A program made the translations under genes and the position numbers. The notes under the pieces are model-generated. The model was given only the letters and a program-made list of their open reading frames with translations, was not told the origin of the DNA and searched no databases. 64,000 bases of DNA from an uncultured bacterium (GTDB lineage Bacteria; Patescibacteriota; Gracilibacteria; Absconditabacterales; Absconditicoccaceae), in NCBI GenBank assembly GCA_947168815.1, contig CAMVNG010000002.1:1-64000 (forward strand). The letters run 5' to 3'. Shown here piece after piece: positions 2,004 through 63,061 of this stretch. Numbering within the stretch: the first letter of the stretch is position 1; the number at the start of each line of letters is the position of its first letter.

Positions 2004-2141
2004 ATGAAGAAAGATGATCAAAGAGTCGCACAGCAACAGCGACGCAAAACGAAGAAAAAGCACAGCAAAATGCAAGTAGAGAACCACCGTTCCTCAAGGA
2101 AGAGCCAGAAGATGGCGCTCAAGAAGATGTGCGGGCTTTAA
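2004..2141 (+). CDS. Small basic protein (45 aa) or small RNA; unresolved
   Basis: Between a consensus promoter (1921) and a strong terminator (2163) lies a short, relatively GC-rich transcript. One frame gives a 45-residue, very basic peptide starting MKKDDQRVAQQ and rich in Lys, Arg and Gln, with no UGA codon and its only Gly encoded by GGG. A second frame (about 1976-2165) is open, acidic and Pro-rich, and runs almost to the terminator, but it lacks an ATG. Neither frame has a Shine-Dalgarno. The leader upstream of the ATG is A/C-rich (repeated AAAACAAAA), like the leaders of the other UGA-free genes. The strong transcription signals are clear. Whether the product is a peptide or an RNA cannot be told from the sequence. 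I saw no tmRNA, SRP or RNase P hallmarks. Confidence 0.4.
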   Translation: MKKDDQRVAQQQRRKTKKKHSKMQVENHRSSRKSQKMALKKMCGL

Positions 2142-2162
2142 CCCCTGCTACTGTGCTCAATT

Positions 2163-2197
2163 AAGCGTGAGGATTTCCTTACGCTTTTCTTTTTTTA
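2163..2197 (+). terminator. Intrinsic terminator of the small transcript
   Basis: Stem AAGCGTGAGGA/TCCTTACGCTT (one G-U pair) with a very short loop, followed by TTTTC and seven T. Confidence 0.88.
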
Positions 2198-2273
2198 TTA
2201 ATTTTTACTTGCAATATTATTTGATATCCTTTTATTCTAAATAGTATTTTACCCTTATACCTTTTTTGTTTAT

Positions 2274-3443
2274 ATGAAGAAAGCACCTCTTTGACTATTG
2301 TTCTTATGAAGATTAGAAGAAGAAAAAGGATTTGATTTGATTTTTGATTTTATTAATCAATATCCAAATAAAGAGCTTCCATTTGAATTGTATATTTTTT
2401 GAAGTTGAAGCTATGAACAAGGTCTTTTAGAACTTTCTTATCGTTTTAAACAAATTCATTACTTTTGATGGAAACCACTTATAGAAGTAGAAAGATATCT
2501 TGATAATATTGATTACTGTTTGATGCCTTCTAAGTTTTTAGAAACTTTTTGATTAAGTGCTATTAATGTATTGAAACGATGAATACCTGTTATTTGATTT
2601 AAAAAAGGTGGATTAATCCCATTTATTCAAGATAGATACGACATCTCTCAGTGTAAGTGAAGTTCAGATTTTTCAAAATTTTCTGAGATGATATTAAAAC
2701 TACAGGAAGAAAAAGAAAATAATACATCAACATTTTATAAGGATCTTGCCAAATCTTCAATATTAACAGCTTCAAAATATACAAAAGAAAAGCGGTTTGA
2801 AAATTTCAAACTTCTATCATCTGATTTGAAGGGTAAAAAGATTGTTATGGTAAGCGATTTTATAAATAAAATATGAGGTATTGAAACATATATTCATGAT
2901 GTAAAAGAAATTCTAGAAAAGGAAGGATATGAGGTTAAATTATTTTGAAATACCTGTCCTAAGTGAAGGCGAGGAAAATATAAAAAGCTCTTTTGAATAT
3001 GAATAGGTCTGTTTAATATAATTGATGCAATAAAGTTTAGAGCTTTTATCAGGAAAGAGAATCCAGACCTTATTCGATATCATAGTATGATACGTTGGAT
3101 GGGATGGATGCCTCTTTATTTTACTAGAAATTATAAAGCTAAGAAATGGATGATGTACCATGATTTTTGATATTTTACACCTTATCCACATAAGCTTTAT
3201 GAGACAAAAGGATTGGAAAAATTAACTTTCAAGAACTATTTAAATCTAGCACATACAAAGAATCCTTTAAAGCTATTGATGGTATCATGAAAATATGCTT
3301 CTCTTAATTTACTAATTCACCAATTGAAGAATCAAATAGATCTTCATCTTACTCCTTCTGAGTTTATGGTTCCTATTGTTTCTAAAGCATTTTGAATTTC
3401 AAAAGAAAAAGTAAAAGCATTTAATCATTTCCTTCAAGATTAA
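2274..3443 (+). CDS. GT-B (GT4-like) glycosyltransferase with swapped domain order
   Basis: A 389-aa protein likely transferring a sugar from a nucleotide-sugar donor for surface glycans. The two Rossmann domains are in reverse order. Residues 1-145 match the C-terminal, donor-binding half of GT4 enzymes: FLGRLEEEKG near the start, then SKFLETFGLSAINVLKRG and PVIGFKKGG. A linker of about 40 residues follows. Residues about 187-389 match the N-terminal half: KKIVMVSDF, then NKIGGIETYIHDV, and at the very end LTPSEFMVPIVSKAFGISK plus KAFNHF, the segment that normally leads into the C-terminal domain. The frame is continuous with TGA as Gly. The start ATG follows a U-rich leader. Two tandem enzymes that lost their outer halves would give this product. 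The sugar and acceptor are unknown. Confidence 0.8.
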
Positions 3444-3475
3444 AAAAGCTACCATAACGAAATCGTTATGGTAGC
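3442..3475 (-). terminator. Terminator of the 3489 gene (12-bp perfect stem)
   Basis: GCTACCATAACG and CGTTATGGTAGC pair perfectly around a 4-base loop. On the minus strand six T follow directly. It overlaps the stop of the convergent glycosyltransferase gene. Confidence 0.9.
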
Positions 3476-3488
3476 AGTTTGCAGTACG

Positions 3489-4022
3489 CTAAATTTCATC
3501 AAGTGCGAGTAATTCTTCCGAAATTTTTTGTTTATCAACATCATCTTTTGCTAGTTCGAATTCAAGCTCTTTAATTCGTTGTTTTAAAGTAATCTTTTCA
3601 TCATCATTGCAAATTAGAAGTTGTTGTTCATAGATTTCTTTTTGTTTTATTTGTTTACCTTCTTTGGTGTTTTCCAGCATTAATTCAAGCTCCTTAATCG
3701 TGATTTTTTTGTTGATCTTAATCGTTTTATTATGTTCTTTTCTAACTTGACTATTAAGTCGAGGAATTAAGATATAACCAGCGATAATTTCAGCAAAGAA
3801 TGATTTTCCGCCTTTTTTAATAAAGCGGTAGAGCATGAATAAATCAAGGAATGTTGGAATAAATCCAATGCTGATGAAAAAACAAAGAATTCCAAAGGCG
3901 GTTTTGGGGATACCCTGAGGTAAAAAATAAAACACAATCGCACAACATAAGACTCCTAAAAATAGAAATGTTAATTTCCAGAGGAGTTCCTTTAAGTAAA
4001 ACCAATAAAATTTTTTTTGCAT
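3489..4022 (-). CDS. Unknown small membrane protein with charged C-terminal coil; UGA-free
   Basis: A 177-aa protein I do not recognise. Two hydrophobic segments (about 15-33 and 42-66) are followed by a short FxxKKGGKSFF turn, then a long Lys/Glu/Gln-rich helix (about 105-177) likely to form a coiled coil. All eight glycines use GGN codons and none uses TGA, unlike neighbouring host genes. It is a single gene: promoter TTGCAT-17-TAGTAT at 4051-4079, an A-rich leader ending AAACAAATAC directly before the ATG, and its own perfect terminator. The same AAACAAATAC-ATG junction occurs at the gene at 42356. No catalytic motif is visible. It ends with TAG. Confidence 0.75.
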   Translation of the reverse strand: MQKKFYWFYLKELLWKLTFLFLGVLCCAIVFYFLPQGIPKTAFGILCFFISIGFIPTFLDLFMLYRFIKKGGKSFFAEIIAGYILIPRLNSQVRKEHNKTIKINKKITIKELELMLENTKEGKQIKQKEIYEQQLLICNDDEKITLKQRIKELEFELAKDDVDKQKISEELLALDEI

Positions 4023-4050
4023 GTATTTGTTTTTTTAAGTTTGAGTTTAT

Positions 4051-4079
4051 ATACTAAACTTTTTGTGCTTTGAATGCAA
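4051..4079 (-). promoter_or_regulatory. Promoter of the 3489 UGA-free gene
   Basis: Minus strand: -35 TTGCAT, 17-base spacer, -10 TAGTAT. The leader after it reads about 20 bases of mostly A with a few C and T before the ATG at 4022. Confidence 0.55.
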
Positions 4080-4101
4080 CAAAAAATGGGTGATGAGGGA
4101 T

Positions 4102-4138
4102 AAAAAAAGGAGGTAAAATGAAATTCATAGTGCCTCCT
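4102..4138 (-). terminator. Terminator of the 4148 gene
   Basis: Minus strand: AGGAGG...CCTCCT outer stem with an inner ATGAA/TTCAT stem, followed by seven T. It lies 10 bases after the stop of the gene. Confidence 0.75.
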
Positions 4139-4147
4139 AAATTTTGA

Positions 4148-4714
4148 TTACTTTTTAATAATGAGTGGTTCAAGAAGATGGAAAAGTCTCTTAGTTGGAT
4201 AGATATAATTTTCACCATGTATATCTTCAATCCTGAAATACTCATTTTTGCACAGGTAATGGTAACTTGACCTTAAAGTATCTCTGAATTCTGAATAAGA
4301 GAGGTCTAAGATACAAGTTTTGATGTTTCCTAAAGGAAAACTTGTGTAAAATTCGATTTCCGGAGCATCATGGCCGCGACCATAGAGTCCAATACTGAAC
4401 AATTCCTTAAGATAATAGAGTAACTTCAATTTCCTTAATTTCCTTTTTTTCAGCTGATTGGCTCTAATCATTCTCATATGAGAATCCCATTGGCCTTGTG
4501 CTTCTTGTAGAGAAAAGTCAAAATCCTTTTCTGCTACGGCAACCCATTTACCGGCTTTAATTGAGTGTTCGAGGAACCATGCCAGAAACTCTTCTTCTTC
4601 TTTTTTCTCTTTCCCACAATCCATAATAAGATAGGGGAGTTCATACCGTTTGAAGCTGATTTGACGGGGAGTGAAGTCAACTTCGAATTCAATTACTTTT
4701 GTTCGTACTTTCAT
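4148..4714 (-). CDS. Unknown 188-aa soluble protein; UGA-free
   Basis: Unrecognised protein with no signal peptide or membrane segment. It has a cluster KKEEEEEF near residue 37, a basic stretch KKRKLRKLKLL near 90, and a mixed alpha/beta look overall. All eight glycines use GGN and no TGA is present. Local GC is clearly above the surroundings around 4360-4385. It has its own promoter (TTGACA-16-TATAAA, 4750-4777), a leader of A runs interrupted by C and containing GAAATACAAAAA, and its own terminator. It sits head-to-tail with the UGA-free gene at 3489, but each has separate signals. Function unknown; probably an acquired cassette. Confidence 0.72.
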   Translation of the reverse strand: MKVRTKVIEFEVDFTPRQISFKRYELPYLIMDCGKEKKEEEEFLAWFLEHSIKAGKWVAVAEKDFDFSLQEAQGQWDSHMRMIRANQLKKRKLRKLKLLYYLKELFSIGLYGRGHDAPEIEFYTSFPLGNIKTCILDLSYSEFRDTLRSSYHYLCKNEYFRIEDIHGENYIYPTKRLFHLLEPLIIKK

Positions 4715-4749
4715 AGCGCTCTTTTTGTATTTCTTTTTGTTTTTTTCTA

Positions 4750-4777
4750 TTTATATTAAAATAATATTAAATGTCAA
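4750..4777 (-). promoter_or_regulatory. Promoter of the 4148 UGA-free gene
   Basis: Minus strand TTGACA, 16 bases, TATAAA. The start TTGACATTTAAT is nearly the same as at the 1921 and 59051 promoters. Confidence 0.7.
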
Positions 4778-4815
4778 GATAGAGATATAAAACAACTCCT
4801 TGAAATTCAATTAAA

Positions 4816-4845
4816 AAGAAAAAAAGACAACTAATGTTGTCTTTT
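4816..4845 (-). terminator. Terminator of glyS
   Basis: Minus strand AAAAGACAAC/GTTGTCTTTT stem with loop ATTA and a trailing T-rich tract. The stem begins inside the glyS stop codon. Confidence 0.8.
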
Positions 4846-10694: not shown

Positions 10695-11603
10695 TTATGA
10701 ATTATAACAAGCAGCAAATTCATTAGCATCTAGTCCTAATTTATCAGCAATAGCTGCAATACCATTTAATGAGAAATCAGATTCAGCCATAGCTGCGTCT
10801 AAGAATTCATAGTAAGCTTTAGATCCATTTAATTCTCCAGCACAATCAACTCCTTTAGCTCCTAAAGGTGCATTTGGATGAAGTGAAGGAATAGGCATAT
10901 TTTTAAATACTAAAGCTATATTATCATCTTCATCAACGATGTTTTCAAGAGATCTGTCATTATAATGTCTTTTACAGAAAGGACAAAGAAGATCAGAATA
11001 TTCAACAATGATAATTTTAGCATTACTTTTATCGTCTTTGTAATAAACTCCATCAAGTAGAGCAGATAGTTGTTCTTCAGTTAATGTTCCAGCGTTACCC
11101 ATATCATCAGTAGTAGCTGAACCATCTTGAACAGAAGCAATAGCAGCTTCAAAAGCTGATTGAGGATAAGCACCTCCAACTGCTTTAAACATACGAGTTT
11201 CAGTATTAATAACAGCGTTACCAGGAGTTCCACTTAGACCAAAAAGGTTATAAGCTTCTTCTGAAGTTGCATTCCATTCATCATTACTAGGAGTTTCAAG
11301 ATTTGATTCTACATCTGAAGATTCAGTTTGAGAACCTTTCATTTGAGCAACTTGGTTATCAATGTTTTCATTGATTTCTTTTAAGTTATCTTCTGTCATG
11401 TAGGCATCGTAAAGTTTATCTACATTTTCAGCAGAACCATAAGGAAGTTCTACACCAATTTTATGCAATGTATTAACTTTCTTGTAAATACAAGTTCATA
11501 GAGCAGCTCCTCAGATAAGAGTACATGCACTCAAAATAACAGCAATCCATGCTAAAGTGTTTGTGCAAGAGCAACAACAACTCTTTGCTTCTTTTCTTTC
11601 CAT
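10695..11603 (-). CDS. Membrane-anchored DsbA-like thioredoxin-fold protein with permuted domain order
   Basis: A 302-aa predicted thiol-disulfide oxidoreductase of the cell surface. A cytosolic Cys cluster (KSCCCSCTN, residues 8-16) precedes one membrane segment (about 17-38). Outside, the part that normally ends DsbA comes first: LFGLSGTPGNAVIN with the cis-Pro motif near residue 145, then VGGAYPQSAFEAAI. After a linker comes the part that normally begins DsbA: KIIIVEYSDLLCPFCKRHYN with the CPFC active site near residue 220, NMPIPSLHPNAPLGAKGV and the helical domain, ending at FAACYNS where DsbA would normally run into its cis-Pro strand. This is a circular-permutation layout. The first stretch is readable only with TGA as Gly. 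Likely partner: the Trx-CcdA fusion at 34469. Confidence 0.82.
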
Positions 11604-34156: not shown

Positions 34157-34348
34157 ATGGATGATTTCTACTTAACTTCAAATGCTGCGTTGCTATTATC
34201 GAACGCGCGAGCTATGCAACCTAAAGAGGGAGAAAATGAGAATTTAGGAGGAATATCAAAATCTACATTGAAAGCTCTTATTGGACAATTTCTTGGCCTT
34301 TTAATTGGTTGTATACTCTGTGGGGTAATATCTTTACTCTGTAAGTAA
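34157..34348 (+). CDS. Small single-pass membrane protein (63 aa); UGA-free
   Basis: MDDFYLTSNAALLLSNAR then a polar stretch and one C-terminal membrane helix (LIGQFLGLLIGCILCGVISL) ending LLCK. Seven glycines, all GGN, in only 63 residues; host membrane proteins use mainly TGA. It is a stand-alone unit: promoter at 34098, A/C-rich leader with AAATACAAA, terminator at 34359. It could be a tail-anchored protein or a small toxin-like membrane peptide, but no antitoxin is visible. The start ATG at 34157 is preferred over the upstream TTG. Confidence 0.6.
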   Translation: MDDFYLTSNAALLLSNARAMQPKEGENENLGGISKSTLKALIGQFLGLLIGCILCGVISLLCK

Positions 34349-34358: not shown

Positions 34359-34389
34359 AAAAAAGGTGGTTGAATGTAACCACCTTTTT
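34359..34389 (+). terminator. Terminator of the 34157 gene
   Basis: AAAAAGGTGGTT/AACCACCTTTTT stem with T run, 11 bases after the stop. Confidence 0.88.
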
Positions 34390-35771: not shown

Positions 35772-36350
35772 TTAACTTTCCCAGGCTTTCTGAACCATTT
35801 CCTGAAACTTTGTAGGCTGTTGTTTCGTGCTAAAGAATTTTAGAGCAATATCAATAAGTCCATTTTCATCTTGTACTTTTGAGATATCAACAATGCCAAG
35901 GGCGACTGCCATCCAAAACTTCTTTTCAAAGTACTGATTGTCCCTATAAAAATCTTTCTCAGAGACAAGAACCTTTATAGGTAAAATATCAGCAACTTGA
36001 GTAAAAATAGCAGTCCAAGTTTTTTGAATTAAGTTGAATTGTCTGGAAAGGGAAGTTGTGTCTAGAACTAAACACGCAGCTTTATATAGAGGGTTATATT
36101 TTCCCTCAGCCTTATCAATAAATCCACGTGCATATTCTGAAATCATTTTAGGATACAGCTTTTCTGAATCTTGTTTTTCAAGGATTCTTTCAGAATAAAG
36201 TTTACTGAGTTTTACTTTATCTTCATTAAGCTGTTCTAAAGAAATCCCTAATACTTCGGCTATAACTTTATCAGGGACATGAGCATACAGAAGATCTCGG
36301 ATACTCTGAGCTCGTCGTTCTAATTGATAATCTGTTTTGTTCATAAGCAT
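35772..36350 (-). CDS. Unknown 192-aa soluble protein; UGA-free
   Basis: All-helical looking protein with an HTH-like stretch near residue 28 (KVIAEVLGISLEQLNEDKV), which would suit a regulator but is not conclusive. Five glycines, all GGN. Its leader is A-rich (AAAAATAAAAACAAAAAATC before the ATG). A weak promoter (TTGAAA-17-TAAGCT) overlaps the end of apt. It shares a terminator with its convergent neighbour. The second ATG (MNKTDYQL) two codons in could be the start. Unrecognised; a member of the UGA-free class. Confidence 0.65.
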   Translation of the reverse strand: MLMNKTDYQLERRAQSIRDLLYAHVPDKVIAEVLGISLEQLNEDKVKLSKLYSERILEKQDSEKLYPKMISEYARGFIDKAEGKYNPLYKAACLVLDTTSLSRQFNLIQKTWTAIFTQVADILPIKVLVSEKDFYRDNQYFEKKFWMAVALGIVDISKVQDENGLIDIALKFFSTKQQPTKFQEMVQKAWES

Positions 36351-42263: not shown

Positions 42264-42292
42264 TTGAATTAGAAGAATGTGTTGTGTATATT
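42264..42292 (+). promoter_or_regulatory. Promoter of the 42356 UGA-free gene
   Basis: TTGAAT, exactly 17 bases, TATATT. The leader contains a small hairpin CGACA/TGTCG at 42324-42338 and then an A/C-rich run to the ATG. Confidence 0.55.
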
Positions 42293-42355: not shown

Positions 42356-42682
42356 ATGTGTATGATAAAAACGTCATTTAAACATGATTCGGTAATTATT
42401 ACCGACTCTCTCGAGGAGGCTACTGAGATTGATCCAGAGCTTCAGAATGTAGATCTCTTGGTAATTGGAGGTAAGCTTGCTCGGCAGAAGAATTGGAAGC
42501 CGGCAGAAGACCAACAGCAGATTCCAGAAGAATTTCTTGCAGATTCTCAGCTTAAGGACAAGGTTGTGGTCCGTATAGGATTAGGTTATCTTTTCTTGCT
42601 GGATGTTGCGACGAAAACCTGTATTAAGGTCTTTGACACAAAACTGCCTAATACTTTGAATCGTTATCTATGTGCCTACTAA
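42356..42682 (+). CDS. Unknown 108-aa soluble protein; UGA-free, high GC
   Basis: Starts MCMIKTSFKHDSVIITD and includes LLVIGGKLARQKNW and VVRIGLGYLFLLDVATK. No recognised domain. Its four glycines are all GGN, and its codons are visibly more G/C-rich than those of the flanking genes (for example 42440-42560). The ATG is preceded by AACAAAAAACAAATAC, the same leader end as at the gene at 3489. An in-frame ATG at 42311 would add 15 residues but lies before the leader hairpin. Own promoter and terminator; monocistronic. Confidence 0.6.
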   Translation: MCMIKTSFKHDSVIITDSLEEATEIDPELQNVDLLVIGGKLARQKNWKPAEDQQQIPEEFLADSQLKDKVVVRIGLGYLFLLDVATKTCIKVFDTKLPNTLNRYLCAY

Positions 42683-42811: not shown

Positions 42812-43324
42812 ATGAAAAATATTTTGGTACAAGAAAGAGACGAAATTATAGATGATTTAATTTCGTATTATCGTTTCCTAAAAAGGGATACACGTAATCA
42901 TTTCTTCAATGCACTTATAGCAAAAAAAAATATAAGCAAACAATCTGATGCTAAAAAAATAGAAATCAATCAATTAAATGAATCATTGTTAAGAATTCAA
43001 TCTCAATATAAGCGTTTGATCATTAATATTTCAATGATTTTACGAATGAAATATGATTGGAATCACGTTCCGCAACAAACAAAAAAATTGTTGCTTGGAA
43101 AATTAATTTGGCATTATCAAGAAAACGGTCTTAGGTCAAAAAAATTACATTTAAGGCGGCTTTCTAGATTGATTAGAAATGCAGAAGATAAAAACAAAAT
43201 CAGCGAGTATAGAAATATAGCTAGAGATGTGAAAAATAGCTATTATATCATTAAGAAAAAACTAGCTATTGCTATAAGTCTTCGAAGAAATGAAATCTTA
43301 AAAGGTATAGAGTTAGATGAATAG
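42812..43324 (+). CDS. Unknown 170-aa basic helical protein; UGA-free
   Basis: A Lys/Arg-rich, helical protein (MKNILVQERDEIIDDLISYY ... EILKGIELDE) with no membrane segment. Basic stretches such as KKLHLRRLSRLIRNAEDKNK near residue 110 suggest nucleic-acid or membrane-surface binding, but no family is recognised. It has only three glycines, all GGN, so by itself the lack of TGA is weak evidence. The layout (A-rich leader, own terminator overlapping the stop) links it to the UGA-free class. It sits just upstream of the giant operon but is separated from it by the terminator. Confidence 0.62.
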   Translation: MKNILVQERDEIIDDLISYYRFLKRDTRNHFFNALIAKKNISKQSDAKKIEINQLNESLLRIQSQYKRLIINISMILRMKYDWNHVPQQTKKLLLGKLIWHYQENGLRSKKLHLRRLSRLIRNAEDKNKISEYRNIARDVKNSYYIIKKKLAIAISLRRNEILKGIELDE

Positions 43325-43340: not shown

Positions 43341-43475
43341 TATAATAATGTATTAATTTTTAAGGTATTAACAAAAAGTCAAGATGCTAAAAAAGTTATT
43401 AATCTTAATTTAATCCCTTTTTTTAACTTTTATTTATACTTAGAATAGACTGTATTTTATATATATTCTCAAGTG

Positions 43476-46400
43476 ATGCCAACTCCTAATATTAATGTAT
43501 TAGAACAGAAAAGAGATGATATTCGTGCATCTTTGGATTCTCTTAAAGCAGCAACAACTCAAGCTGAAAAAGGGAGATTACAAAAACAAGCGGATCAGCA
43601 AATCAAAGATTTCTATAAAGAAATCTCAAGTATTCACGCAGAAAATGCAACAGAGCAAGGGAAATTAGATGCACTTAAAACAGAAGTTGATGGATATAAG
43701 CAAGAAGTAACTAAGCTTCTTGAGCAAACAAGGGATAATTTAGCTGCTTTACAAGAGCAAGCACAAACAAATCAACAAACACCAACTCAAACTCCTTCTC
43801 AAGCTCCAGCACAGACACCAACGCAAGCACCAACCCAGAGCCAAACACCTGAAAATCAACCAGCAGAACAAAAGGGTTTTTGGAGAAAAACAAAAGATTT
43901 TATTTCTGAAAATTGGGAAGCTGCAACAAGTTGACAGAAATGGAAAGAAGAGCCAGGGACTAATTTGGTTCGTTGGGGAGCTTTTTTAGGAACGGGTGTT
44001 GCTGTTTGAATATGAGTTAAGAAATTATGGAATTGGGCATTTTGAGATAAAAAGAAGGAAAAAGAATCAAATGAATGAAATTCTGATTCATGAGAAAGTA
44101 AATCATTCTGGAAAACAGGATGGTGAAAGTTTCTTAAGTGGTCAGGACTTTGAGCATGAGCATACTATGTTGTTCATGGTTTAAAAACAGGAAAATGGGG
44201 ATTGTGATATCTTTTTGATTGGAAAGAAAATTCTCCTACCTCAACAAAATGAGAATTGTATGATAATTATACAGAATTAGCCGAAAAAGATCCTGAAAAA
44301 TACAAGGAATATGAAAAATTCGGTACAAATGTTAATACGATGTATGATAGTATATGGGAAAGAGAAAAGAAATATTTTTGATCAGATTCTCAAATTGTTT
44401 TATGAGAAATTTGAGATAGAGCAAAAGAGGAGAAAATCCAAAAGGCTGAGAGTTTTAAGAATATCGATACAAGATGACTTGTACCTTATTCGTTAGATAA
44501 TTACTACGCAAATGTTTGAGAATTATTATCTTATTGATGAGTAAGTAAATATCTAAGAGCAAAAAATATTGAGGAATATAAGCAGAAGATAACTGGTTTT
44601 GGAGCTGAATGGTTTGATAAAACAATGGTTCCATTTCTATCAAGTTTTGCTAGTTTTTCTACTTTTTGAATCCTCAGTACAGATACTGCACAGCAAAAAA
44701 TGGATAAATTTTTCAATTGAATAAGAGATAATGCAGATGATAATATGCAAATATTGGATTTATTCTTCAGACAATACACTAAAGTACTTACTTATATGGC
44801 AGATAAAAAGAATGCATTAGCAGCAAAAAAGGCAAGAGAAATAATTTCAAGGCAGTGATATGACGGAAAAGCTTGGCCATCAGATCCAGATGAACAGGAA
44901 GAAATGATTAATGAAGCTATTAATGATTCTGAATGGATAGATAAAAATTTAAAATCAACAAGTTATTGAGCATTTATGAGTTCAAGTATCTTATGAGCAA
45001 GCAAAATTCTAGAACAAGAAACACTAAATCAGAGTGAAATGACTGATGAATTGAAAGAAGTAGTTGATGAGGTCGATTCACAAACAGAAAAACTACTTTG
45101 ATGATTTGATAATAACGCATTTACAAAAGCAGAGGCTAAATTAAATGCTGGATCGTCGCTTGAAATGAGTGAAAAAGAATGATTAAAAAAGGTAGCAGAC
45201 AATATAATAGATGATTTATGAGACACACAAGAGTGAGGTTGGTTATATGATACATTTGATTACTGATTTGAACTTCTTGGATTAAGCGAAGCTGATAGAC
45301 AAACAATATTAAAAGAGTCTTGAATTACTGATGCTCTTACAAAAACTGCAACTTCAATCAAAACTCTTCAAAATGAAGTATTTACAAATCCAACAAAAGA
45401 AAATGTAGCTCAATTAAAGAAATTAGTTGGAGAATATACTTCAATGAAAAAAGAAATAGCTGTTGCGCTCTATGCAATACAAGAGGCAAAAGAGAACAAG
45501 GATGCAGCAGATACAGTTGCACAAGTTCTTTGAGCTATGGGAACTTGATTATTTCACTTCATAGGTTCAATGAATGATTTAATTCATCGAAGAGCAGATA
45601 CATGAGATATCATAAATATATTCATATGATTAACAATTTCTGGTGGAATAGTTGAATTCTGATGAAGATTATCATGAAAAAAATGGGCTATAGTTGCTGG
45701 ACATTATTCAAGAAAAGTAGGTTTAGCACCATTGGCACTGGCTGAAATGGGATTATGACATACTAAATGGTGATGGGCAGTAAAAAGACGTATCAAAGAT
45801 TTATCAAAAGTGAATAGGGCTTGAGCAGAAAACTTACTAAAAAAGAAAGTTATAGAATGAGTACTTTCACCAAGGCAAGTTAAAGACATAGTAACTAATG
45901 ATCCAGAGATTATGAGAAAAATAGTAGTTACTAGTGCTGATACAAAAGAACAAATATTTAAAAAATTTGTAACTAATTTATTTGAGGGATCTCAAGAGCA
46001 AGCTAACCTCTTTATTAAGTACTATGGTAAAACTAAAGGTTTAGTTTCTTGGACAAGAGCATCAGTTAGAGACTGATGATTAACAAGTCACGCACATAAT
46101 ATAGAAATTAATACAGCTGCATTTGATGAACTGAAAAAGTTTGATATAGAAATTGAAAAATTAGGAGGATGATCTGCTCAAAGAAAATTCTTTGATAAAA
46201 TGATAAAAAAAGCAAACTGAGTCGATGATTTATCATTCCTTAATAAGTTAATCAATAATAATGAATTTAAAACAGCATTAACACAAGATTCTGTAAAGCA
46301 ACTTAGGAAATTGAGTATTGCTGAATTTAAAACATTAGAATCAAATGGAAATTTAGCAAAATTTCTAAAAAACGAATTACCTCTAGATACTATGATTCGT

Positions 46401-46946
46401 GAATTAAAATGAACAAAAAAAGTAGCTCAAGAAGTTGTTGAAGAAGCTGTTGAAGTTGCTGATACACCTGCAAGAAGAGCTTTTAATGCTGGAATTGATA
46501 GAGCATTGTGAAAATTCGATGAATTTGCTGATAAAAGGCCTTTCGAATATACAATTAACAAATTGAAGGCATTAAAGAAAGATGCAACACTAGCTGATGA
46601 GGAAATGGAAATTTTTGCAAAATTTATAGACAATTGATTCCATCCAAAGTTCATACCAGAATTGAAAAAATTATTTGATATTAAGGCTAAAGTTTGAGCA
46701 GGGGATGCTGCAGAAGAAATGGGTACAAGATTAAAAAGATTATTGGCAGATGGAAATTTCCCAGAATTTAATGGATATCTAAGAAATCCAGATTTCTGAA
46801 AAATGTTTAAAAATGCACAAATAGATAATGTATTAGAACTATCAGAGAACCTCAAAAAAACATTTAGTAAGTTCTGAGAATTGGCATCTCAAGCAACTAA
46901 GAATGCAATGAAGAATGTTATGAAAGTAATTCTTAAGGTATTTTAG
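43476..46946 (+). CDS. Giant membrane-associated protein 1 of the envelope operon (1156 aa)
   Basis: First gene of a four-gene operon. An N-terminal coiled-coil (about 5-95) is followed by a Gln/Thr/Pro linker (about 105-135, repeats of TPTQAP type), then KGFWRKTKDFISENWEAATS and two hydrophobic segments: LVRWGAFLGTGVAVGIGVKK near 170 and LGAGTYYVVHGL near 225. Further hydrophobic stretches lie near 690-760. The rest is a long, mostly helical region rich in Lys/Glu/Ala with ARRAFNAGIDRALGKFDEFA near residue 1010. There is no signal peptide. I recognise no family. Gly are mostly TGA, so it is a native, long-resident gene. Confidence 0.7.
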
Positions 46947-46966: not shown

Positions 46967-49900
46967 ATGGCTTCTGTTGAACAATATAAAGAAGATATTG
47001 CAACAAAATACTTGGATCAATTCAAGTCTGAGCTAAACTTTTTCGAAAAAGCCATGATTTTACCAATCACAGGAAAAATGAAAGAGATTTTAAAATCAGA
47101 TAAAAAAATAGATGCACAAAAATTATCTGATTTAGAAGATCTTTGATTTCGAAGGAAAGTGTTATGAGCGAAGTTTTGAGATAAAGTATTATTTGAATCA
47201 TTAGTTAATAAGACATTTAATTTCTTAAAACAACAACAAGAAAAAATTATTGAAGCTCAAACTCAATGAAAACTTGATGTTCTCTTAAATGAAGCGATTA
47301 ACTGAAAGTTAGAAGATTTAAATCAAACTGTTGCTCAAGCAAGTGATGAACAACAGCAGTCACAACAGGCACAATCTCAACAAGTACAAGACCAACAATG
47401 AGAACAAGCTCAGCAAGGACAAACAGAACAGCAATCTTGAAACCAAGAAAGTCTTACTTGAAATGAGGATAGAGATTGATGATTCTCAATGAATGATCAT
47501 GCTGTTGAAGCTGGAATATGAAGTGCTGCTGTTGCAACAGGAGCATATCGTCAGAGCATATCACAAGTAGAAAGAAGACTTTGATTAACACCTAAACAAC
47601 TTCCAGAAAGTTTTGATAAAGCAAGGACACAGGAAATGTTCTGAAAACTAGCAGACAAAATGGAGGAGAAACTTAATTGATGAGCAAAATTAAATAGACT
47701 ACAGAGATATACATATCAAAAGTCTATAGCTAATTTTAGAGAAGCATCTAAATCATTAGACAATGCGACAGCTGATGCATATAAAGCTTGGCAAAAGATT
47801 TGAGATAGGTTGCCTCCTCAATTCTTAAAGCATCTTAATATAGATCATCACGTATTAGATTTAATTGATGCATTACCTGAAAAAGAATTAAAATCTCTAA
47901 TCTGAAAAAATGAAAAACAAATAGTTAATATCCTAAAAAGAAAAGGTATTCAAATTTCTGAAGATTTTGCAAAAAGTTTAAAAATTGCAACAAATGTACA
48001 GGAAATAAAGCAGATTACTAATGTTGCAAGAAATGGTAGAAAATTAGCAAGTTTCTTGAAAGGAGTAAAAGGAATGTGAGTAATAACATTCTTATTTATG
48101 TGATTTGATGTATGGAATTATTTTGATGCTAGTAAAGAAGCAGAACTTGTTTCAAAACTTAACAGTATAAGATGACAAGTACTTCAGGATGAAGCAACAG
48201 CACAACTAATTATTTGAGTTTGATGAGTATTAGCAGAAGCTTTATGATTATTCTGTGTTTGTGCCGCAGGTTGAAGTGTAGGTTGACCAATAGGAACAGC
48301 AGTATGAGTTTGTATTGGTGTTATAGTATGAGCTATTTCAATGATTACAAGTTCTTATCACGCATCTAAAGAATTCTATTCACAAAATAGACATGATTTT
48401 ATTAATAAGAAAAGAGCGGAAGTTAAACAATCAATAGTTCAACTCTTTGAATCAGATCGCCTGGGAATGGATGAAGGTATGAAAGAATCTATAAAAGAAG
48501 CAAGGGGACCAAATTCTGAAGTTAACACAATGGAAGATGCTTGGGAAGCTCTAATTTATCAAGAAGAAATTTCTGAAGGATGATATGATTATCTTTCTTG
48601 GTATTATGGTTCATGAGAAACTGAAGAAAATTTCTTAAATAAATTATCGCAGCAAGAAAAGGATGAATATCAACGTGAGAAGGAAAAGATGGAACAAGTA
48701 ATTAATATTAGAATGGAATATATTAAACAGCATATTTCGGATAATCATTCTTCAGAAAGCTATAAAGCTTTGAAAGAAGCTATCAATAATAATAAATGAA
48801 TAGCTTATGTTGAACAAATTCTTGCTGATGCTAAAATTTACAGCTATCTAAAATCAGAGGATGAAAATCCATATATTGAAAATTATAAAACGCTTGATAT
48901 TAAAGGATATAAAGAGGCTTATAGAAATAAGTTACAATCCGAATACTCAGAACAATTTGCTATTTTTGAAAAATTAAAAACTGAAAATCCTATTTTGTTA
49001 GATGAAATATGTAGAGGAGCAAAAGCTTCAAAACCAGCATTAACTTCATATATTGAATCATCTCAACAGGGAACAGAATCAGAGACAACACTTTATTCAC
49101 CTTCAGAAATTGAGAAATTAAAGAAAAACTTGGATTTTGTTGAAAAGTACGATCATTATAGAAAGCTTTGAGTGTCTCAAGAACAAATTACAGAAGCGTG
49201 AATATCAGAAACATGATTAGATTATAATTATATTGAACAAGTATTATTAGATTTAAATTCATTATCTAAGAGACCAAAACGAGAAAAAGAAAAATCAATG
49301 AAGTATTTATCATCTGCTGAGTATAATACAAGAATTGATGATCGAGAAGTTGAAACATCAAAAAGTTTGTTTCAGAATATCCTTTACAGTATTGCAAAAG
49401 AGGTTCATGGATATACAGGTAAAAACGATAAACAAGAATTAGTCGGTTTTTATGCATTAAGTTGAGATGTAACCTGAATCTATATGAATGGGAAATGGAA
49501 AGTTAATGAGGATTGGGAAGTAGATTGAACTATTGATAGTCCAGATATAATGACAAAAGAAGAAATGTTAAAAGTAATTGTATGAGAAGTTGAATTAGAT
49601 ACATCTGTCGAAGCTGCTGATGAGAAAGTTACACAGGAAGTTAGAGAAAGAATAAAAGAAATTATCGAAAGAGAATTTAGTTTTAGAGAAAAGAAAAAAG
49701 AATATGAGGAAAAGATTGTAGATTATATTAAATCTCAATGATGATCCGGATATATGGAATTACCAAATGATTTGATAATACAAGCACGTAAATCATGAAT
49801 AGGGGAGATAGATAAATTCTTATTTACATATGAAAATTGAAAAATCAAAGCATTATGACGTTGAGATACAGCAGGTAAAGTTCTGAATTTTGATAAGACA

Positions 49901-51286
49901 GGGACAGAAATAACCTATGAAGTTACTAATAAACTTCGTGAATCATATACACAAGAGGAAGAAAGATTGATGAAGAAAGTTGATGAGATGAAAGAAAAAC
50001 TAACAAAGATGAGAGCACTTGAGGGAGATGCGTTATGATGAGGAACAAAAGAGGATGCTTTAGATATACCAGTAGAAATAGAAAGATTGATGAGTAAGAA
50101 ATCAGCAGAATGGCAAGATGCTAAAGATGCTATTCTTTACATGCAGCCATATACAGCACAGGATTTTCTATCAAAAAAAGCAAAAGAGTATTATGAATAT
50201 TTTGAAGGTATGTATGTTGGTCTTTTAAGTGAAATTACGAGAAAGAGTAGCTTCTTAAATTCTGATGATATTGATGAAGTTGATGAGTTCATGCAAGCGT
50301 CATCATTTGTCTGAGTGAATATAGTTAATATAGAAAAATGAGAACTTAAATTAGCTACAGCTGTTGATGAAAAAGTATGAGAATATCTACTCAAACTTCT
50401 TGAACTTTATAAAGATGAAGCTACAGGGAAGACAGTGAAAGAAATGCTCTTATCAGAAGATAGTGCATTGCAAGAAAAATGACAAGAATTGGCTAAAGGA
50501 CTCCATATGTTATGTTTAGAAGAATCAGTGATTAAAAGAGATTCAGAATGAAACATTAGTTCTTATACAACATTAGATATGAATGATTCAGATTTTGAAA
50601 GAGTGAAAACAAAAATGAAGGATGTTTTATCTCAGAAGCAATTTCAAGAAATACATAATGAGTATCAAAATGCCGCAGTAGCACAAGTATGAGAAGTAAA
50701 ATCGAGAAGAATGGAGTGATGAGAGCAAAAAGTACATCAAGAAATTAATAAAATAACAGATAATATAATAAATACTATGAACCATATAGATTGGGCTCAT
50801 ATGAGAAATAATCCAAAATTTGTTCCAGATCAGGAACAATTAAAAGAGGGAGAAGTCTCTTGAACATTTGATTCTCGATGATTTAAGGAAAAAGTGACAC
50901 TCATTATAGAATGAGATAAAATACTTTGACTGAAAATTAATTGATTGGATATAGTTTATTGAAAAGATCCAGAGAGTCATAATTCATTATTTTGAAATAT
51001 GAGTGAATCATCAATACATGATTCAATTGAGGAATGATTACGTACAGCGAATTTAATCAATTTTATAAAGGATAATGCAAAGAAAAATCCTTATTGAAAA
51101 TCAGCTGTAGGTAGATCATGGGGTACTTATTGATACTATCACCGAAGTAATGGTTGAGATTTAGAAAGAGATGTTGTAAATAATATGAACGACTTTAATA
51201 TATTAGAAAGTGACACAATAGAAAAGTATTATTACATGATTAAGGACAATGAAGACTTTATCCATTATATTAATTCATTTGTTTAA
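46967..51286 (+). CDS. Giant membrane-associated protein 2 of the envelope operon (1439 aa)
   Basis: Follows gene 1 after 20 bases. It has a helical N-terminal domain (1-115), a Gln-rich linker (about 125-165, QQSQQAQSQQVQDQQG type), then a helical block and a Gly-rich hydrophobic hairpin near residues 365-465 (KGMGVITFLFMGFDV; then GVGGVLAEALGLFCVCAAGG with GPIGTAVGVCIGVIVGAISM). The remaining ~970 residues are soluble, acidic and helical, with YGKSAVGRSWGTYGYYHRSN near the C-terminus. It lacks a signal peptide. Overall layout resembles gene 1: helical head, low-complexity linker, membrane insertion, long helical body. The glycine-rich hairpin could be pore-forming; this is a guess. Confidence 0.7.
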
Positions 51287-57021: not shown

Positions 57022-57050
57022 TTGACGAAATATGTTGTTATCATTATACT
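57022..57050 (+). promoter_or_regulatory. Promoter of the 57079 gene
   Basis: TTGACG, 17 bases, TATACT. The transcript would begin near 57057, so the ATG at 57079 is favoured over 57055, and the upstream TTG in the -35 box is excluded. Confidence 0.65.
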
Positions 57051-57078
57051 TAAGATGAATTTTATTAGTGTGAAGAGG

Positions 57079-58188
57079 ATGGAGACACTTGCAAGTTTAG
57101 AAGATAGAAAATCATTTAGCACAATACATTACCTATTGAAGACGGTTAATGATTTTTTATCTGATTGCTCAGATGAGGAGCTTGAGTACTTTAAACAGCA
57201 AGCAGTTCAATTAGAAGAATATGATGTTGCTAAATGGATAAAAGAGGAGCAGACACAAAGATCATTTTCATCTAAAAGAATGCCATCTGAAGTTATTCAT
57301 TTGGTTCAAAAAAGTTCAGAAGATGTTGAAAATATTTTGAAGGAGAAAGTTCCATCTAATAGTAATGTTTTAAATAGTTCAAATGATTTAAATACAAATA
57401 AAAATCAAGATTCTGTTCAAAGCAATGAATCTGGTCGAAGTACACAAAGTACTAACTCTATTCAAAATGTAGATGGAGATTCTAAAAATTCTTCTAGTGA
57501 AAATAAATCAGCCAAAATTGTCCCAATTCAACAGCCTGTATATCAAGAAGAGAATCTTAAAAAGAAGAGACTCCTTGATTTTGTACTGCCCAAGAAATGG
57601 GACCCCTTAAAAAAAGTTGAAAGTAAGAATAATTGAATTGATGGTATTGCACAAACGACAGAAAATTGAAGTGATAATGGCGTTAAAAAAGAAGATAATA
57701 TTTCAAAAACTTTAGACATTAATATCCCCCAAAAATCTGAGACTACTCCAATTAAAGATATTAAGGAAAAGTGAACTATGACGATCATATCTGATGATGT
57801 TGAGGTCTCAAAAGAATTATTACTTTCGGATTTAAAAAAGAAAGCAACATTGTTAAGGGAGAAATCTATAAACTTAGTACAAAACCATTTTGAAAACGAT
57901 GTTAGATATTCAATGTATGTGAAAGAATTAATATCTTATTTCGAAGAAGCGTGTTCTAAGAACTCTGATTTAATTCAATCATTGTGATTAAATGAATCGT
58001 TTGATGAGATTTATGGTAGATATAAAACGCTACAAACAGGCATGGTCGCTGAACAAATAACAAGGGCTGAGTATTTTAATTGAGTAATCTCAATGTTTGA
58101 AAACTTGGAAGATACAATAGAAAAAGCAAAAAAATGAGAACTAAAAGATTGATTATGAGACTGAAGTAAAGAATTAATACTAAAATAA
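57079..58188 (+). CDS. Hypothetical protein with long disordered Ser/Asn middle (369 aa)
   Basis: N-terminal part METLASLEDRKSFSTIHYLL to about residue 75 is helical (DELEYFKQQAVQLEEYD type). Residues about 95-230 are low-complexity, rich in Ser, Asn, Asp and Lys (NSSNDLNTNKNQ). The C-terminal 130 residues are helical (LLLSDLKKKATLLREKS, LISYFEEACSKNSDL, YGRYKTLQTGMV). TGA-Gly codons occur only in the second half (from 57633). No signal peptide or known domain. Possible scaffold or surface-linked protein; the disordered middle gives little sequence signal. Confidence 0.6.
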
Positions 58189-58222
58189 AAACCCCTCCTT
58201 GAATTACAAGAAGGGATTTTTT
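58188..58222. terminator. Bidirectional hairpin between convergent genes
   Basis: CCCTTCTTG/CAAGGAGGG on the minus strand (one G-U) with five T; the plus strand has one C-A mismatch and eight T. The better stem on the minus side suggests it is mainly the terminator of the 58242 gene. The TAA that would end a UGA read-through of that gene lies in its loop. Confidence 0.75.
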
Positions 58223-58241
58223 TTATAAAATTACATTGTGG

Positions 58242-59000
58242 TCATTCTAACAGAGCAAATCCACAAGCATCTTCAGCAGAGGATACCGTAAGACTGATTA
58301 TTCCAGGTTGCATAACTTTAACATAGATCCGTTCTGCGTGATCTCCAGCCTGTTGTACAAGCGTTGTGCCAGAGGCAAATGCAGGGAATTGCATAATACC
58401 CGAACGTATTGAATCAATCTTAATTAAGTTGCCAGTTTTATCGAGAGACTCACGACTAGTTTCCAAGAATTCGATTGAACAAATATCACTTTTGCGCAGA
58501 CTATCCGAATATTCTTCTACCCAGAAGGGGATTTCCAAAAGGCTATCAGATTTAGATGAATACTTGAGAAGTTTTGCAACATAGATACTATCGTTTGGTC
58601 GCAGTATTTGTGTTGAACAGTCCCACTCTATGGAGTCTCCATTTTCATCAAATAACGCCCATAAAGGAATTCTTCTCCCAGTTTCGATCACAATGAGATA
58701 CTTTTTACCTGCAGGAATGTCAGTATATAGTTCAACACTATCATTACCCATAATTTGTGTAATACCGTCATCCGAAGGGGTCATAGATGGAATAGATGGT
58801 TTGTACTCAAGTGGTCTCTTTTGATAACCATCAATGAGCTTGCCTCTAGTCTTTTTCAGGATACAGGAATCAATCTCTTGAAGAGCTTGTTCGTCATCTG
58901 CTTTATATCCCTGAGGGATAGAAAGCCACACTAGGAAGAACACGACTATTAGTGTACATGTCCAGCCAATTTTCGTTTTTAAAGAACTTCTTTTACTCAT
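58242..59000 (-). CDS. Unknown exported or membrane-anchored protein; UGA-free and apparently ending at UGA
   Basis: A 252-aa protein with a short basic start (MSKRSSLKTK), one hydrophobic segment (about 11-29) and a strand-rich extracytoplasmic region with recurrent Asp-Ser pairs (NDSIYVAK, KSDSLLEI, YSDSLRKS) and several Cys. All 15 glycines are GGN and there is no internal TGA. GC content is visibly high. The frame reaches TGA after CGFALLE. If UGA is read as Gly here, 12 to 13 extra residues follow to a TAA at 58204, inside the terminator loop. Promoter TTGACA-16-TATTAT and an A/C-rich leader with AAAATACAAAT lie upstream. The start at 59000 follows the leader. Unrecognised; very likely from a standard-code donor. 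Confidence 0.68.
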   Translation of the reverse strand: MSKRSSLKTKIGWTCTLIVVFFLVWLSIPQGYKADDEQALQEIDSCILKKTRGKLIDGYQKRPLEYKPSIPSMTPSDDGITQIMGNDSVELYTDIPAGKKYLIVIETGRRIPLWALFDENGDSIEWDCSTQILRPNDSIYVAKLLKYSSKSDSLLEIPFWVEEYSDSLRKSDICSIEFLETSRESLDKTGNLIKIDSIRSGIMQFPAFASGTTLVQQAGDHAERIYVKVMQPGIISLTVSSAEDACGFALLE

Positions 59001-59050
59001 AATACTAGAAAATTTTGAGGATTTGTATTTTGTTTTTTTTTGCGAGGGGT

Positions 59051-59078
59051 ATAATATCAAATATAATATTAATGTCAA
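59051..59078 (-). promoter_or_regulatory. Promoter of the 58242 UGA-free gene
   Basis: Minus strand TTGACA, 16 bases, TATTAT. Excludes the longer ORF beginning at 59096, which would start upstream of the promoter. Confidence 0.65.
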
Positions 59079-59146
59079 GAGAAAAAGAAATTGCATTTTT
59101 ACGCCTATTATTTAGAAGATAAATGTTTTAATGATTAAGAAATAAG

Positions 59147-59919: not shown

Positions 59920-59925
59920 ACTGCT

Positions 59926-59945
59926 CGGAATTTTTATTTATTCCG
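59926..59945 (+). other. 5'-end stem-loop of the deacetylase mRNA
   Basis: CGGAA/TTCCG around an AU-rich loop, located at the predicted transcription start and directly before the ATG. It may stabilise the 5' end or tune initiation; the short stem makes this tentative. Confidence 0.35.
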
Positions 59946-59952
59946 CTTTGAA

Positions 59953-60975: not shown

Positions 60976-61078
60976 ATTTCGATGATATATTTTAGTAATC
61001 ACCTTAATATTACTTATGCTTGAAAATAGCAAATAAAAAGTTATCAAAAGGATAATTTTAAATTTTAGTATAATAATC

Positions 61079-62374
61079 ATGAAAAAAGGATACGTAATAA
61101 CAGCTTGTTTATATTTTTTTGTTATCCAATTCTTCATTATTTGAGCCTTATGGTGAGATTCTCATTTTTATACATTATGAGGAATAAATTTTTTGGTATT
61201 TGTTATTTTCCTTTTTTGAGTATCTGTATTAAAAGATAATAATAAAGAAAAGAAAGAAATATATCCAATTGTTAAGGAGAGAGTATCTCAAGAAAGAGTT
61301 GTTGAAGATAAAGTTGTTGTAGAAGAAAAAAATAATGAAAACGAAGCTCCTAGAAGGATAAGGAATGAAGCGCCTATTTCAGAATCTAATATTGAATATA
61401 TTAAAACTAAAATTAATCGTACAAAAAGAAAGCCATTAGCTGAATGAAGTCCTCTATATCGTTTCTTAGTTTTTCTACTCGCATTGTTAGGATTTTGAGG
61501 AATTCTATACTTGTTTTGGGAATCATTAGATTTTATAGCATCAGTTATTGGAGCTGTTGCAATGCTTATCTTTATAGGGGTTTGTTTTAAGGCCTGAAAT
61601 ATTCGAAGAAAGAGTTTACTTTCATCTGTATATTTTTGGATTTTCCTTCTTCTTTTAATATGAGGTATTTTATGATTAGTTTTTTCAGGTAGCTCAACAG
61701 TTGAAAAAGTAAAAGAAGACATCTCTGTATTCTTTGATGGTGTAAAATGAGAGGAAATTAACAATGATGTTAATGAAGAAGAAAATTCTTGATTCTTATA
61801 TGAGATAACAGGAAGTATTTCAGATATTTCTCTAACATGAGAGAATATTGAACCTTTATCTTGAGATAATGATATCGTTTCATCTTGAGAAAGTGATGAG
61901 ACTCTTTGAAATCAAGTTATTGAGAATGAGCAGCCAGTAGAAGAGGCAGTTCAACAACCAAAGGAAGAAAAAACAGCTACAGTTGAAAATGTTGAACCTA
62001 AACCAACTGTAACTACAACACCTAAAAAAGAACCAACTTCACAGGTAACAATGATTGAGGCAATTAAACATCTTATTTCTGCATATAATATACCTGTTTC
62101 AAAATCAACATCTTCTAAGTTTACATATGTCTCAAAGTCTAATGCAAACTATCCTTATATGAAAACAGCTTTAGAAAAGAAAATGATTTGAACAACAACA
62201 AATCCAGATATGATTGTAAGCTGTGAAGTATACATGGTAATGAAAGGGTTGGCTGAAGGATGGAATATTACAAAATCAGCAGATCTTAAGGAAAATTATT
62301 GGAATATGGCAGAATCTAAAGGTTTATTAAATTGATGTGTTAAAGGAGCAAAGCTAACATATGCTAATCTTTAA
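61079..62374 (+). CDS. Multi-pass membrane protein with acidic linker and C-terminal SLH-like domain
   Basis: A 431-aa protein with two hydrophobic helices near the start (YVITACLYFFVIQFFIIGAL, NFLVFVIFLFGVSVL), a charged cytosolic loop (about 60-115), further helices (about 125-205: FLVFLLALLGFGGILYLF, VIGAVAMLIFIGVCFKAG, SVYFWIFLLLLIGGILGLVFS) and an acidic/Pro-rich linker (about 240-325). The final 100 residues, YPYMKTALEKKMIG and TNPDMIVSCEVYMVMKG, look like surface-layer-homology motifs but this is weak. One TATAAT (61067 region) lies just before the ATG. Own terminator. Confidence 0.6.
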
Positions 62375-62394
62375 AAATTAAATATTCTATTCCT

Positions 62395-62424
62395 AAATTC
62401 CTAGAGTAATCTAGGAATTTTTTT
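62395..62424 (+). terminator. Terminator of the 61079 gene
   Basis: AAATTCCTAGA/TCTAGGAATTT perfect 11-bp stem, 4-base loop, followed by T's. Confidence 0.9.
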
Positions 62425-62432
62425 AAATTAAA

Positions 62433-62461
62433 TTGCATTAAAAGTAATAATTCCTTATAGT
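62433..62461 (+). promoter_or_regulatory. Promoter of the 62483 UGA-free gene
   Basis: TTGCAT, 17 bases, TATAGT, then a short A-rich leader (AAGAAAAAAAATATAATAAT) before the ATG. It starts 9 bases after the preceding terminator. Confidence 0.55.
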
Positions 62462-62482
62462 TAAGAAAAAAAATATAATAAT

Positions 62483-63061
62483 ATGGTGTCAATAAGGTAT
62501 AATAAAACATTATGGATTGCTCTGTTCTTAAGTCTTTTTTTTAGCTTCTCTTTTATTTTCTCTGATGTGTTATTCGAAAGAAATGATTTAGGATATAAGG
62601 CTTTAAGTATTCTAAATCAATTCTTTGTGACTATCTTTATGTCTTTAGTAATCTATTGGATCGTCGTTAGAACTAGAGATACGGATAATCAAGTGGTACA
62701 GCTTAGAGGCATACTTAATTTCATAAGTATTGTTATTAAATCATTTGATACAGAGGGAAAAAATGAAAAACTTGTCAAATTAGAAGAATTGAAGGCGAAT
62801 CTTGAATTAGGTAGAAAAAGAATTAAAAGATTTTCGATTTTGGGCATTGCATTGATTAGTTTACTATTAGTAAATGGGTTACTCAATTGCTTTATTGATT
62901 ATTTTACATCACAGAACGCTTTGATTAGTCCACTTATTAATGATGAAACGGATATAGCAAGATTGACGGCTATAAAACGTTGGATCCCCTTTGTCCTTCT
63001 ACTTCTTGCATTTATGCTAGTGCCAAGTTTTATGAGAACAAATCCTTATGAGGAGAAGTAA
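62483..63061 (+). CDS. Unknown four-helix membrane protein (192 aa); UGA-free
   Basis: MVSIRYNKTLWIALFLSLFF leads into four predicted helices (about 8-28, 43-63, 112-132 and 166-184), with a cytosolic helical loop between the second and third (VVQLRGILNFISIVIKSFD, EGKNEKLVKLEELKANLE). Six glycines, all GGN; a membrane protein of the host would use mostly TGA. It has its own promoter, an A-rich leader and a terminator spanning the stop codon. No family recognised. Confidence 0.65.
   Translation: MVSIRYNKTLWIALFLSLFFSFSFIFSDVLFERNDLGYKALSILNQFFVTIFMSLVIYWIVVRTRDTDNQVVQLRGILNFISIVIKSFDTEGKNEKLVKLEELKANLELGRKRIKRFSILGIALISLLLVNGLLNCFIDYFTSQNALISPLINDETDIARLTAIKRWIPFVLLLLAFMLVPSFMRTNPYEEK

Follow-up and report, generated by a model that had tools for sequence, protein, structure and literature searches.

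How does a bacterium that reads UGA as glycine come to carry genes in which UGA never encodes glycine, and in which cell are such genes read? The question arises from bases 1-64000 of contig 2 of G000, a 1.29-Mb metagenome-assembled genome (MAG) of an uncultured member of the Absconditicoccaceae; this 64,000-nucleotide stretch is hereafter called the window. Ordinary genes of G000 stay open only when UGA is read as glycine, and UGA accounts for 61% of their glycine codons, in line with the "well over half" of the initial annotation. Nine genes of the window, which that annotation had singled out for holding about 57 glycines and no UGA, indeed contain 57 sense glycine codons (23 GGA, 17 GGT, 11 GGC, and 6 GGG) and no sense UGA. 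They had been described as moron-type cassettes, each with its own promoter, leader, and terminator, acquired from, or kept readable in, a standard-code background. We found that they belong to a gene class in which three codons keep their standard meaning, UGA as a stop and CGA and CGG as arginine, and that two codes are maintained in this one genome.

Two codes in one genome

Codon alignments confirm a resident code in which UGA is glycine and CGA and CGG are tryptophan. When the CGA and CGG codons of ordinary G000 genes were compared with relatives, 32 sites corresponded to Trp and 4 to other Arg codons. In the class genes, five such codons fall at Arg and none at Trp (Fisher P = 1.7e-4 against ordinary genes), and in-frame UGA is almost always located at the 3' end of the open reading frame (ORF), ahead of a strong hairpin. 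The genome encodes a tRNA with a UCA anticodon, labeled SeC by ARAGORN, and also a tRNA(UCG). A search with the prfB model returned a single release factor-like gene, scoring far below the cut-off and containing nine in-frame UGA codons; release factor 2 (RF2) therefore seems to be absent.

Thymidylate synthase (ThyA), which occurs in both codes, offers the clearest example. Among 49 genomes of the family, 28 encode ThyA. CGA and CGG occupy Arg columns 18 times and Trp columns twice in the UGA-free copies, compared with 57 Trp and 1 Arg in the UGA-bearing ones (Fisher P = 1.6e-14). The three exceptions all come from two copies, L195 and L203, that were misbinned by UGA count alone; in L203 the first UGA is the stop, after APVAV. 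The CGA/CGG sites of the class ThyA include conserved substrate-binding arginines (NPDS-R-R and YQ-R-S), and translation by the resident code should therefore yield an inactive enzyme. The ThyA proteins of G000 and G002 are 71% identical over the gene and both end in LDIG[IV]-UGA, with unrelated read-through tails. The G012 and G059 genes end in APVAV-UGA and AVSI-UGA, respectively. Eight genomes (G011, G016, G022, G040, G043, G046, G062, and G063) carry one ThyA in each code. In three species (G040, G043, and G046) the ordinary ThyA gene, the standard one, and ackA are adjacent in this order, and the standard copy has its own promoter, A-rich leader, and terminator. The initial suggestion that the class is kept readable in a standard-code background is thus strongly supported: CGA and CGG retain their Arg meaning and UGA serves as a stop. 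The L195 copy (G061), though free of UGA, is an ordinary gene by its Trp-column CGA/CGG codons and its U-rich leader. For classification, the identity of CGA/CGG and the type of leader are preferable to UGA content.

Genome-wide statistics were drawn from 766 kb of the 1,294 kb, sampled as stretches, and from a sample of 448 kb; all genomes compared are MAGs, and the relatives recovered by name are mostly from rumen or gut. The probability of finding no UGA among 57 glycine codons at 61% usage is about 5e-24, but the nine genes had been chosen for lacking UGA. Counted without such choice, ORFs of at least 100 codons free of UGA number 33 in the 448-kb sample for 4.0 expected, and UGA-free ORFs number 63 in the 766 kb for 8.9 expected. 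The class is therefore no illusion of gene length and glycine content, one of the outcomes that the initial annotation had named as its refutation. We estimate that the genome holds about 100 single-gene cassettes (8 per 100 kb sampled). Their GC content at third codon positions (GC3) ranges from 0.22 to 0.63, compared with 0.12-0.24 in ordinary genes, which bears out the visibly higher GC noted at first, and they use GGC and CTG, codons that are nearly absent from ordinary genes. Class membership was defined by UGA at ≤15% of glycine codons and GC3 ≥0.215, a filter that also passes a small number of spurious ORFs, such as those in the L127 tRNA cluster and at L002:7227. As this filter is built on UGA content, independent evidence comes only from CGA/CGG, the position of UGA, leader, promoter, terminator, and phylogeny. 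UGA-free genes of G025, G038, and G039 were excluded because UGA is almost unused as glycine in these genomes. We consider it very likely that this gene class is real and is being maintained in the standard code.

A separate, unrelated low-UGA group, outside the class, comprises the highly expressed EF-Tu, L11, and S4 genes, which avoid UGA through codon choice, with low GC3 and almost no GGC. UGA is avoided in these and in a thioredoxin-like exported protein with the same low GC3 and scarcity of GGC (window 10695-11603; L009:162-1334; L007:19256-19696; L127:12717-13337). We regard UGA avoidance in highly expressed or secreted ordinary genes as a distinct translational effect, UGA being a disfavored glycine codon.

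Architecture, products, and ancestry of the cassettes

The nine class genes of the window and their signals, the latter assigned from the sequence, are the following (HTH, helix-turn-helix; EM, expectation maximization).

Class gene 1, 2004..2141, + strand: basic ORF of 45 aa, GC3 0.63, stop UAA; the shortest and weakest member
Promoter of class gene 1, + strand: TTGACA 1921-1926, TATAAA 1944-1949
Hairpin terminator of class gene 1, about 2163-2197, + strand
Class gene 2, 3489..4022, - strand: membrane/coiled-coil protein of 177 aa, 8 Gly, 0 UGA, two CGA; leader ...AAAAAAACAAATAC-ATG
Class gene 3, 4148..4714, - strand: 188 aa, 8 Gly, 0 UGA, one CGA, one CGG; private terminator
Promoter and leader of class gene 3, - strand: TTGACA 4777-4772; leader ...AAACAAAAAGAAATACAAAAAG
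Class gene 4, 34157..34348, + strand: membrane protein of 63 aa, 7 Gly, 0 UGA; leader CAAATACAAA
Hairpin of class gene 4, about 34362-34388, + strand
Class gene 5, 35772..36350, - strand: HTH-like protein of 192 aa
Class gene 6, 42356..42682, + strand: 108 aa, GC 0.41, 0 UGA; leader ...AACAAAAAACAAATAC-ATG
Upstream of class gene 6, + strand: TTGAAT 42264-42269, TATATT 42287-42292, EM motif
Class gene 7, 42812..43324, + strand: 170 aa, only 3 Gly, GC3 0.22; compositionally the weakest case
Class gene 8, complement 58242..59000, - strand: 252 aa, 15 sense Gly codons, none of them UGA; UGA stop 58244-58242
Promoter and A-rich leader of class gene 8, 59001..59085, - strand: TTGACA, then TATTAT/ATTATA; leader AAAAAAAAACAAAATACAAA
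Bidirectional hairpin, 58190..58225, either strand: common to ordinary gene 57022-58188 (+) and class gene 8 (-)
Class gene 9, 62483..63061, + strand: membrane protein of 192 aa, 6 Gly, 0 UGA; DUF1761-like segment below the Pfam cut-off

The only UGA within the nine genes is the stop of class gene 8. Read as glycine, it would extend the frame by 76 codons, across the terminator, whose hairpin 3' of the UGA has a predicted energy of -19.5 kcal/mol. The gene had been listed at 58242; it belongs to the class, but this position is the UGA stop of a complement-strand gene and not its start. Class gene 3 is present in a single copy in G000. Homologs of class gene 5 were found only in G000 and the sister genome G002. 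The G002 protein (25% identity, E 1e-8), likewise encoded without UGA, bears sigma-70 region 4 and a domain resembling the C-terminal domain of the RNA polymerase alpha subunit (alpha-CTD), and the resemblance lies in its N-terminal part. Among the other genes of the window, 43473-46946 and 46967-51286 were initially read as rpoB and rpoC; this reading was dropped, as 46967-51286 is only 26-32% identical in relatives.

The signals of the class differ from those of ordinary genes. An EM motif over 65 class upstream regions converged on TTGAAT-17-TATAGT and fits the class clearly better (1.61 against 0.63 nats per sequence in ordinary genes); its general form is TTGNNN-17-TATANT. Crude scoring of -35 and -10 hexamers did not separate class from ordinary genes. 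In the last 20 nt of the leader, A and T fractions are 0.54 and 0.23 in the class and 0.35 and 0.45 in ordinary genes, and AACAAA lies within 50 nt in 56% of class genes against 7% of ordinary ones. A hairpin followed by a U-run occurs within 90 nt in 76% and 34%, respectively. The claims of an own promoter and a private terminator are therefore borne out, as are the A-richness of the leaders and their difference from the ordinary U-rich type. The claimed C-richness is not (C fraction 0.10 in the class, 0.11 in ordinary genes), so that the leaders are better described as "A-rich with AACAAA/AAATACA" than as "A/C-rich."

Searches of the window proteins against Pfam, PHROGs, and NCBIfam gave nothing convincing, in agreement with the initial view that none has a recognized function. 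Elsewhere in the class, Pfam identified a PlsC-like acyltransferase, thymidine kinase (TK), HU, thymidylate synthase, and PhoH; a UGA-free gene of G016 was assigned to purC by eye only. A search for defense systems with PADLOC returned one weak match among 46 class proteins. The UGA-free G002 homolog of class gene 5 (L116:4851-6083, 410 aa) carries HTH, sigma-70 region 4, and RNA polymerase alpha-CTD-like segments, and its product is, from its domains, a possible transcription factor for the cassettes; a tblastn search of phages with this sigma-4 protein was negative. The lipoprotein-like signal peptides of the class (TSC-ES and SSC-SN; L013:16-291 and L131:16392-17192) look different from those of ordinary G000 lipoproteins (LTG-C and LAG-C), which may hint at the membrane for which they are destined.

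All nine window genes stand alone between ordinary chromosomal genes, outside any prophage, and most sampled class copies likewise lie outside prophages. Three stretches, L020 (G000 contig 13) and L115 and L116 (G002 contig 22), are prophage-like, with UGA-dense structural genes and several antisense cassettes. Orphan family A1 occurs at least four times in G000, including members on prophage-like contigs. "Moron-type" is thus apt for the copies inside code-25 prophage contigs and not for those of the window. Scans of IMG/VR with the PlsC-like protein, TK, two window proteins (P0002 and P0003), and family A1 yielded no relatives, and relatives of ThyA on its viral contigs are only 45-46% identical.

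The history of the class is best resolved for its enzymes. Three species of one genus and a single species of a second carry the PlsC-like gene, which contains no sense UGA and whose four copies form one clade (support 99/97) nested among gut Bacteroidales sequences. This topology indicates a single capture from gut Bacteroidales, followed by divergence across two genera. GC3 is 0.5-0.86 in the Bacteroidales relatives and 0.25-0.46 in the resident copies: it has shifted toward that of the resident genome without the gain of any UGA. As the donor-type genes also have different upstream signals in the loci read, the cassette signals were not imported with the coding sequence. TK proteins of three species are 81-85% identical, with synonymous divergence (dS) of 1.1-2.2 and nonsynonymous divergence (dN) of 0.13-0.15; in G001 and G002 the gene adjoins the same UGA-only gene, whose products are 51% identical. 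Across nine class coding sequences (four PlsC, three TK, and two ThyA), 0 of 126 glycine codons are UGA. On the ThyA tree, the code label requires 4 changes, against 11 with shuffled labels, and standard-code lineages therefore persist across genera. The class is long-lived and under purifying selection. "Acquired" holds for the PlsC-like gene; recent acquisition does not, given this divergence, selection, and synteny. Nine Bacteroidales genomes lack TK, and a close relative of PlsC occurs in eight of them; tblastn against phages and plasmids found ThyA and TK matches below 60% identity and no donor. The ThyA copy L191 (G041), UGA-free and with an A-rich leader, is nested in a code-25 ThyA clade of its own genus, and may reflect a switch from the resident to the standard code, or chance.

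Which cell reads the class

The standard reading of a gene can be selected only where the gene is so read. As the resident cell seemingly has no RF2 and reads CGA and CGG as Trp, the DNA (or RNA) of the class must repeatedly work in a standard-code cell. We assign a probability of roughly 0.75 to the class being read in another cell. That this cell is the host, and host control the purpose, is a more tentative proposal, to which we give slightly less than even odds. Under this proposal, an Absconditabacteria-type epibiont maintains in the standard code, on its recoded chromosome, cassettes that each have a promoter, A-rich leader, and terminator of their own. Their DNA would reach the host in a phage-like particle, through type IV secretion, or by some other route of contact, all putative. 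The cassettes would be transcribed by the RNA polymerase of the host and translated on its ribosomes, so that the proteins would be made in a standard-code cytoplasm and not in that of the epibiont, most likely in the bacterial host or prey that such epibionts attach to. ThyA, TK, the PlsC-like acyltransferase, and regulators might then raise the thymidylate and phospholipid supply of the host, on which a parasite unable to make these compounds would draw. The related Vampirococcus is an epibiont without nucleotide and lipid synthesis that consumes host cytoplasm and DNA (PMC8080830); for a cell of this kind, the benefit of host-directed thymidylate and phospholipid genes would be plain.

Several observations weigh against genes directed at a host. 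Most class proteins have no known domain and are mainly small membrane or soluble orphans. The one relaxase family tested, PF03432, was not found in 25 genomes, and the match to a type IV secretion coupling protein in G000 is weak (4.6e-6). No delivered copy of one orphan family was found in 393 Bacteroidales genomes, a search without positive control. The class promoter is sigma-70-like and unlike that of the Bacteroidota, and the host may thus lie outside the Bacteroidales.

The main rival is a mobile element with two hosts, a phage or plasmid whose accessory genes are written for a standard-code host and whose chromosomal copies are domesticated or left over. It accounts for the codons equally well, and a published study inferred phages linked both to bacteria of the candidate phyla radiation (CPR) and to standard-code bacteria (PMC10746230). 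The antisense cassettes among phage genes of code-25 prophage-like contigs (L020 and G002 contig 22) also fit. However, all prophages of these bacteria in that study use code 25 only (PMC10746230), and the structural genes beside the cassettes are dense in UGA, which would be unworkable in a standard-code host. The absence of viral-contig relatives for PlsC, TK, two window proteins, and one orphan family, and the syntenic position of standard-code ThyA next to AckA in three species, also weigh against such an element, to which we give a probability of about one-fifth. Recent horizontal transfer from standard-code donors, with too little time to gain UGA, would explain the foreign-looking composition and the tracing of the PlsC-like gene to Bacteroidales, and some other UGA-free islands in the family do look recently transferred. 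One of these, a Shine-Dalgarno-led, polycistronic, pilin-like cluster in a distant relative (L037:132-2883, G007), resembles an ordinary recent transfer and not a cassette. We nevertheless judge recent transfer improbable for the class: it is contradicted for TK, ThyA, and PlsC by the single PlsC origin followed by divergence, by near-saturated synonymous sites and synteny, by a GC3 that moved while UGA did not, and by uniform promoters, leaders, and terminators unlike those of the donor. Individual orphans could still fit it.

Native expression in the epibiont with mere avoidance of UGA, for example because of slow decoding as in highly expressed genes, is very unlikely. EF-Tu, L11, and S4 do avoid UGA, but their GC3 is low and GGC is nearly absent from them, the opposite of the class, and avoidance leaves CGA/CGG at catalytic arginines and UGA as a stop unexplained; the codon evidence contradicts it. 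Least credible of all is assembly chimerism, that is, host or phage DNA binned into MAGs. The genomes are MAGs and G002 has 6% contamination, but cassettes occur singly between code-25 genes in long contigs, and the same architecture and conserved neighbors recur in MAGs that are independent of one another and span at least five genera; G000 itself is 99.7% complete with 1.4% contamination.

Significance and comparison with known systems

Provided that the codon evidence holds, genes in two mutually unreadable codes coexist stably in one bacterial genome, and the working rule "one genome, one code; a recoded cell cannot use standard-code genes" is broken. Standard code in a recoded symbiont would then be a built-in label for candidate host-directed genes, and how uncultured CPR epibionts manipulate their hosts would become testable from sequence alone. 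Single-code annotation mistranslates the class, with wrong residues at CGA/CGG and false C-terminal extensions. Should the genes indeed be read in a host, this would be genetic host control between bacteria, visible through the partners' differing reading of DNA. We found no report of such a standard-code class in the open-access literature.

In Agrobacterium T-DNA, a bacterium keeps genes that go unused in its own cell and whose signals suit a host cell. The likeness that we propose is one of logic only: border repeats, relaxase, and transfer are not shown here, and the presumed host is a bacterium. Phage morons are monocistronic genes of foreign composition with their own promoter and terminator, often antisense between phage operons, and are read by the lysogen. 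The cassettes share the single gene with autonomous promoter and terminator, but those of the window lie outside prophages, and the code of the lysogen would be predicted to misread them, placing Trp at catalytic Arg and reading through UGA. Integron gene cassettes are defined by a common recombination site (attC) and an integrase; the cassettes described here have promoters of their own.

In Absconditabacteria, CGA and CGG were predicted to encode Trp and UGA Gly, with one code per genome (Shulgina and Eddy 2021, PMC8629427). This reassignment provides an independent test of the class code; a second, standard-code gene set in one genome is not described in the parts of that study considered here. 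Lak and related alternatively coded phages, with code-specific gene sets (discussed in PMC10746230), also combine two codes in one replicon, divided by gene group. These phages are recoded relative to their host and bring code-switch machinery, whereas in the present case it is the cell that is recoded, RF2 as such machinery was not found, and metabolic and orphan genes make up the standard set. The code-11-compatible phages of Gracilibacteria and Absconditabacteria, for which breadth of host range was the proposed reason (Liu et al. 2023, mBio, PMC10746230), likewise tie UGA-free standard-code genes to code-25 bacteria. Unlike these whole phage genomes, defined by spacer matches, the cassettes are single genes amid code-25 genes, on the chromosome and on prophage-like contigs; their CGA and CGG codons are also standard, and their phage neighbors are dense in UGA.

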